This document shows positions 6,470 through 43,579 of a stretch of DNA of 64,000 bases, piece by piece; position 1 is the stretch's first letter, and each line of letters starts with the position of its first letter. The notes below the pieces were generated by a model. The model ran no database searches and was not told where the DNA came from. It saw nothing but the letters and a program-made list of their open reading frames with translations. A program made the translations under genes and the position numbers. Source of the stretch: an uncultured Bacteroidia bacterium (GTDB taxonomy: Bacteria > Bacteroidota > Bacteroidia > NS11-12g > UBA9320); assembly GCA_905478335.1 (NCBI GenBank), contig CAJQIC010000022.1:1-64000 (forward strand). The letters are read 5' to 3'.

Positions 6470-6907
6470 ATGTTTGAACTTGTATGCTGTTCAAAAGCTT
6501 CTCCATCGTTAACAATGGATGACATTCGTGCAATTTTAGATACGGCTAACCAGTTTAATGACGCACATGACATCACAGGTTGCTTGCTTTATTACAACAA
6601 TGAATTTGTTCAATTGCTAGAAGGCGACAAAACAGAGGTGCTTGACCTTTACGAAAACATCAAACGTGATAAACGACATTCTTACGTGCTGCTGCTTGGA
6701 AAAGGAGAAAAGGAAAAGAGACTTTTCGACAATTGGAACATGGCTTTTCAGGATCTAAATAATGAGTCAAACGCTAAATCAGAAATGAAAGAATTTACCA
6801 GAAACTTTGAAGCACTTTCTGAATTATCCAAAACGCCGACACATGTTACGGAATTGTTTTTTGAGGTTTCAAAACTTATCCTCAGTTACGGGTTAGAGGC
6901 TGAGTAG
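6470..6907 (+). CDS. BLUF domain protein lacking the photoactive Tyr
   Basis: A 145-residue protein consisting of one BLUF (blue-light FAD sensor) domain of about 95 residues and a helical C-terminal extension. Conserved positions are Asn30 (in NQFNDAHDITG), Gln48 (in EFVQLLEG), Trp89 and Met91 (NWNM). The tyrosine needed for photoactivation in AppA (Tyr21) and PixD (Tyr8) aligns with Cys6 in the opening strand FELVCCSKAS. The start codon is secure because the first beta strand begins immediately. Short BLUF proteins usually act by protein-protein contacts; without the Tyr this one may bind flavin in a light-insensitive way or use another chemistry. No output domain is fused. Confidence 0.85.
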   Translation: MFELVCCSKASPSLTMDDIRAILDTANQFNDAHDITGCLLYYNNEFVQLLEGDKTEVLDLYENIKRDKRHSYVLLLGKGEKEKRLFDNWNMAFQDLNNESNAKSEMKEFTRNFEALSELSKTPTHVTELFFEVSKLILSYGLEAE

Positions 6908-6990
6908 TTGTTTATTTGCCAAAGTAACGGACACAATATCATGTCATTGAAGACCATAGGGGCTCCGTTATATTACCTATTTCTTTTTTA

Positions 6991-6998
6991 TACCTTTG
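6991..6998 (+). promoter_or_regulatory. -7 box upstream of the sulfatase gene
   Basis: TACCTTTG matches TAnnTTTG, 20 nt before the first possible ATG (7019) and 41 nt before the preferred one (7040). No TTG is seen at the standard spacing. Confidence 0.4.
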
Positions 6999-7039
6999 GT
7001 TGACTATGCCTTCAGGAAATGCTGAATAACACAAGCCCT

Positions 7040-42952: not shown

Positions 42953-43579
42953 CTACACAAGTGTATAATATTCGGTTTTTTCTGTTGTGTGAGATCTCAA
43001 CAGGCCAGCGCTGATTAAATTTACGATAATCTTAGTCGCTCTTCTTGTACTAATATTAATCATGTGTTTGTACTCTTTTAACGTTATTCGGTCGTTTTCA
43101 GACAAATATTCCAACAACGCTTTTTCCTTACTCGTATAGTTGATAAGCGCTCCTTGACTAGACGCATTTCTTTTCAACACATCCAATACAATTTTACTGG
43201 CTAACAGCGTATTGTCTTTAACACGAACATACGCCCACCACTTGCCATTTTCATCTTTAGCGTAATACGGTTTTTCTGTGCCAGGCAAAACAATGCATTC
43301 AAGAATTTCCTTACCCTCTATAGTATGCTGCTTAATATCTAAACTAACCTCTGGTTTGCAGTAAAATCGCGCTGCTAAATCCAGCATATAATACTCTTCG
43401 TCACTTTTGACTCCTGAAACCTTCTGATTGTCTTTTACACCAACAAGCAAAGTACCGCCATTGTGATTGGCAAAAGCTTCCATTGTCTTAGCAATTTTGG
43501 AAGCACTAGTAATATTCTGCTTGTAATCCAGCTTATCACCTTCTCCCCTATTCAACAACTCGTAAATTCGCTTTTTCAC
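42953..43579 (-). CDS. AlbA_2/Schlafen-type putative DNA-binding protein
   Basis: A 208-residue protein. Residues about 12-125 match the AlbA_2 (Schlafen AAA_4) domain: EGDKLDYKQNI, then AFANHNGGTLLVGVKDNQKVSGV and KPYYAKDENGKWWAYVRVKDNTLLAS. The C-terminal 65 residues form a winged helix (LLEYLSENDRITLKEYKHMINISTRRATKIIVNLISAGLL). Such proteins are usually annotated as transcriptional regulators, without known targets. The start is GTG at 43579, 21 nt beyond the Hsp20 terminator, with a TACCTTCG box four bases before it. Confidence 0.8.
   Translation of the reverse strand: MKKRIYELLNRGEGDKLDYKQNITSASKIAKTMEAFANHNGGTLLVGVKDNQKVSGVKSDEEYYMLDLAARFYCKPEVSLDIKQHTIEGKEILECIVLPGTEKPYYAKDENGKWWAYVRVKDNTLLASKIVLDVLKRNASSQGALINYTSKEKALLEYLSENDRITLKEYKHMINISTRRATKIIVNLISAGLLRSHTTEKTEYYTLV

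Follow-up and report, generated by a model that had tools for sequence, protein, structure and literature searches.

From our analysis of a 64,000-nucleotide stretch of DNA from an uncultured Bacteroidia bacterium (hereafter the window), we found a gene for a short BLUF protein in which cysteine occupies the place of the photoactive tyrosine. We consider it probable (roughly two chances in three) that an ordinary short BLUF has recently, and specifically in this lineage, lost its photochemistry, with the fold kept, flavin probably bound and the protein held in one fixed state. On this reading, an ordinary PixD/BlsA-type BLUF gene parted from that of the nearest sampled sister species and then lost its photoactive Tyr through one A-to-G change, while the product kept the BLUF fold and probably the ability to bind flavin. 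Devoid of the Tyr electron and proton donor, the protein could not use blue light to drive the Tyr-Gln-flavin hydrogen-bond switch and would be locked in one state, perhaps a lit-like one as in published Tyr-to-Phe mutants. Its remaining role could be a leftover light-independent one or none at all, in the setting of a genus which is losing the whole BLUF-HxlR locus and in which selection for light sensing may have been relaxed.

The open reading frame starts with ATG and its 145-residue product begins MFELVCCSKASPSLT, whereas the opposite strand in the same register has many stops. The BLUF profile PF04940 matches residues 1-92 over its full length (E 4.7e-27, 94.4 bits against a cut-off of 25), and the protein consists of this single domain and C-terminal helices with no further Pfam domain and no effector domain. 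The AlphaFold2 model (mean pLDDT 88.6, pTM 0.82) has the BLUF alpha/beta fold; its top Foldseek matches are Tll0078, Slr1694/PixD, AppA, BlsA (6w72/6w6z) and photoactivated cyclases, with a probability of 1.00 to AppA, PixD and BlsA. Homology and fold thus make the window protein a BLUF, and its length below 200 aa, one BLUF domain and C-terminal helices place it among the short BLUFs of PixD/BlsA type. The crystal structure of TePixD Y8F is also among the Foldseek matches, which shows that a Tyr-less BLUF still folds. The switch glutamine Gln48 (on strand beta3) and the flavin-pocket residues Asn30, Trp89 and Met91 are all present, as the first-pass annotation had described [Table 1]. A role as a defence-system protein was rejected, there being no PADLOC match, and so was a phage or plasmid origin, as no viral contigs with close relatives were found and plasmid DNA gave no match to the locus. 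Elsewhere, the window encodes a protein with a Schlafen AlbA_2 domain (42953-43579, minus strand; 74.5 bits).

Table 1. Coordinates of the BLUF gene, its key codons and the adjoining gap within the window.
Feature	Position	Strand	Basis
Short BLUF protein gene, 145 aa	6470..6907	+	ORF, PF04940 94.4 bits, AlphaFold2 model, Foldseek matches
BLUF domain, residues 1-92	6470..6745	+	Pfam match 1-92/92
Codon 6, TGC (Cys6), photoactive Tyr position	6485..6487	+	TAC in G001, TAT in both G004 copies
Codon 7, TGT (Cys7), ancestral residue	6488..6490	+	Common to Tyr-bearing relatives
Asn30, flavin-pocket residue	6557..6559	+	Kept in 98% of family
Gln48, switch glutamine	6611..6613	+	Kept in all complete domains of main census
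Trp89-Asn90-Met91, Trp/Met motif	6734..6742	+	Conservation analysis
Two C-terminal helices, residues 102-119 and 125-143, PixD/BlsA-type short BLUF	6773..6898	+	DSSP of AlphaFold2 model
BLUF-sulfatase gap	6908..7018		HxlR sequence sits here in G001 and G004; no remnant in window

In a gap-free alignment to PixD/Slr1694 (3mzi), Cys6 stands opposite Tyr8, which is the position of AppA Tyr21 on strand beta1, and the window reads VCCS where its same-genus relatives, again aligned there without gaps, read VYCS; the proposal that Cys replaces the photoactive Tyr is confirmed by both alignments. With AppA, phmmer in some cases opens a gap that sets Cys6-Cys7 against AppA's own Cys pair immediately ahead of Tyr21, and even in these alignments no Tyr of the window protein reaches Tyr21. 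As the first Tyr of the protein is Tyr41 and the same-genus relatives align without gaps, an alternative Tyr at the photoactive place is ruled out. Among the conserved positions of the BLUF domains collected (at least 80% conservation, n = 19), Cys6 is the sole departure in the window protein, which, judging from the alignments, is a BLUF lacking the photoactive residue that defines a BLUF photoreceptor.

In BLUF photoreceptors, Tyr passes an electron and a proton to the excited flavin, after which the hydrogen bonds linking Tyr, Gln and flavin are rearranged (PMC4844311, PMC10799861). The AppA Y21F mutant is ‘not photoactivatable’ and its Trp transfers electrons without forming the signalling state (PMC10799861), while the AppA Y21F/Y56F/W64F mutant is stable and flavin-bound, looks like the light-adapted form and undergoes no red shift (PMC7005313). 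In BlsA, the Y7A change removes the normal control of motility by light and leaves the overexpressed protein insoluble (PMC6695109). By analogy, Cys6 should render the window protein light-insensitive; the earlier expectation that photoactivity goes with the Tyr is backed, as a probable outcome, by the sequence together with the AppA Y21F and BlsA Y7A mutants. Retention of flavin binding, by the same analogy, is likely but not certain.

The rarity of Tyr loss was judged in a census of 103 distinct BLUF domains, gathered by searching at class and phylum level, from the genome collection and from one plasmid. Tyr was present in 101 of them, the remaining two being a Phe form (L076, genome G359) and the Cys form of the window. 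Two more came from searching the family of G359, one with Tyr (L118) and one with Val (L122, genome G837), so that Tyr is found in 102 of 105 domains and Cys6 is unique to the window. In the tree, the nearest neighbour of the window BLUF is a Tyr-bearing copy from genome G004 (support 100/93), and the Cys, Phe and Val forms require three changes; their independence is argued mainly from the difference in residues, as some of the branchings in this part of the tree are weak. Loss of Tyr is thus found elsewhere in Bacteroidia too, in a Phe form and in a Val form without the switch Gln. The Phe form (L076 292-714) also has Ser at the pocket Asn, and the Val form (L122 1342-1779, minus strand) has His at the switch Gln in a genome which also encodes the normal BLUF L118. 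Another BLUF domain, L078 232-729 in genome G440, has Lys at the pocket Asn and Cys at the Trp, lies close after the BLUF gene L073 and appears degenerate. Tyr was highly conserved among 1,048 marine BLUF homologs (PMC8805636), and a published BLUF survey used a search pattern which demanded it, Y-x(21,27)-... (PMC4844311), so that the survey was unable to find Tyr-less forms. Our literature search, which covered few subscription journals, found no report of natural Tyr-less BLUFs or of BLUF-HxlR pairs.

Within the order, BLUF was found in 3 of the 108 genomes searched, all three from the genus of the window, and these three species share the gene order DNA alkylation repair gene, BLUF, HxlR (where present), sulfatase and DUF1348 gene. 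G004 has two BLUF copies (L006 and L002), both with Tyr at position 6, and a complete HxlR-type regulator lies downstream of the L006 copy. A frameshift in the C-terminal part of a G004 BLUF copy was not scored as decay because adjacent genes are broken up in that assembly as well. In the sister species G001 (L005 7913-8326, minus strand; contig 34, JAIBDD010000005.1), BLUF residues 1-37 run in frame into the C-terminal portion of HxlR, a fusion produced apparently by a deletion between the adjacent BLUF and HxlR genes. The gap downstream of the window BLUF holds no recognisable HxlR remnant, and no HxlR was found anywhere in the host genome by a search that was positive in all 14 control genomes. 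No BLUF was found in G003 (genome 84% complete) or in G002, in which the locus is rearranged; a very large secreted-type protein of more than 1,700 aa, open at its end (L050 1-5202, minus strand), sits in place of the BLUF/sulfatase region in G002. Taken together, these comparisons show the BLUF-HxlR locus to be eroding across the genus, and adjacency, seen in two species only, makes HxlR a putative former output partner of BLUF. The host genome also carries a microbial rhodopsin gene (G000:C17:81291-81965, L126), which is indicative that the organism probably lives in light.

From codon 6 in the window, G001 and G004, the simplest history is a single A-to-G change that postdates the divergence from G001. 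The gene is otherwise well preserved, as its pN/pS against G001 over 37 shared codons is 0.17, within the 0.10-0.19 of the flanking genes (rough values, since synonymous sites are near saturation), and its rate does not significantly exceed that of the G004 relative. General decay was thus not seen, given the open frame and the intact state of the other conserved positions. One precise lesion without general decay fits either a recent change or a kept function independent of Tyr, and the same observations are the counterpoint to the loss reading, with which a kept, possibly changed, function remains compatible.

The main rival to a loss is accordingly a kept light-independent role, in which the protein would be a selected constitutive or dark-state regulator (acting through partner binding, temperature or flavin occupancy) and loss of the Tyr would have fixed a useful state. 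Besides the intact frame, the conserved residues and the flank-like pN/pS, such a role would agree with the recurrence of Tyr-less BLUFs in the class (the Phe form of G359 and the Val/His form of G837) and with the stable, flavin-bound, lit-like AppA triple mutant (PMC7005313). Nevertheless, Cys6 occurs in no other sequence, the neighbouring HxlR is gone, the gene is lost or broken in sister species, and a recent change would also leave an open frame; we therefore regard a kept role as unlikely, if worth holding in mind.

Recent loss would also be mimicked if TGC instead of TAC had arisen in error during sequencing or assembly, or were a polymorphism private to the strain. The difference is one A/G change in a draft genome of 74 contigs, the one genome of the species examined. 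Nevertheless, assembled contigs seldom contain single-base substitution errors, the frame and its neighbours are otherwise clean, and the genome is listed as 100% complete with 0.06% contamination, which together make an artefact or polymorphism improbable.

The first-pass annotation had also offered a redox sensor using the Cys6-Cys7 pair, or a flavin-thiol variant. Two adjacent Cys near the expected flavin pocket do invite such ideas, in which the pair would form a disulfide or Cys6 a LOV-like adduct with flavin. However, Cys7 is an ancestral residue, widespread among Tyr-bearing relatives, and Cys6 is conserved in no clade, there being no second Cys6 among the 105 BLUFs and Tyr in all the same-genus ones. 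The model predicts a single uninterrupted beta strand (residues 2-10) that holds both residues and on which neighbouring side chains face opposite sides, so that a disulfide between the two is improbable. Tyr reaches several angstroms further than Cys, whose side chain would be expected to stay away from flavin C4a, which makes an adduct unlikely as well. Both proposals are thus unsupported, and a thiol-based sensor seems very unlikely to us. Least probable of all is that photochemistry persists with Trp89 as the donor, for although Trp89 is present and Trp gives an electron to the excited flavin in Y-to-F mutants, this pathway failed to photoactivate the mutant (PMC10799861).

The window case and the two others in the class show that natural Tyr-less BLUFs exist in genomes, where they are easily missed because the published survey required Tyr in its pattern (PMC4844311). 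Such proteins are natural material for asking whether the BLUF fold functions without photochemistry, and the species of the genus form a small natural series in the loss of the BLUF-HxlR locus. A bolder idea, which we consider doubtful, is that the Cys, Phe and Val/His forms are kept as light-independent flavin-binding regulators and mark a recurring evolutionary exit from photoreception, with the fold surviving as a fixed or non-light switch. If the change is a simple loss, as we judge most likely, the wider consequence is small.

Among known systems, PixD (Slr1694/Tll0078) resembles the window protein in its BLUF fold with two C-terminal helices, its size of about 145 aa and its Asn/Gln/Trp/Met pocket residues, but it has Tyr8 in place of Cys6, and no PixE-type partner was identified near the window gene. 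Acinetobacter BlsA is likewise a short BLUF of similar size with a matching fold (6w72/6w6z); it differs in having Tyr7, whose replacement in Y7A abolishes normal light regulation (PMC6695109). Further counterparts are the G004 BLUFs, of which the L006 copy (59% identity) lies at the same locus between the DNA alkylation repair gene and the sulfatase, but they carry Tyr at position 6 and the L006 copy is followed by a complete HxlR gene. The laboratory mutants TePixD Y8F and AppA Y21F share the lack of the photoactive Tyr, although they are engineered and carry Phe instead of Cys. The G359 (L076, Phe) and G837 (L122, Val, with His for Gln48) proteins are, like the window protein, natural Bacteroidia BLUFs without the photoactive Tyr, but they differ in the replacing residues, belong to another family and carry additional changes.
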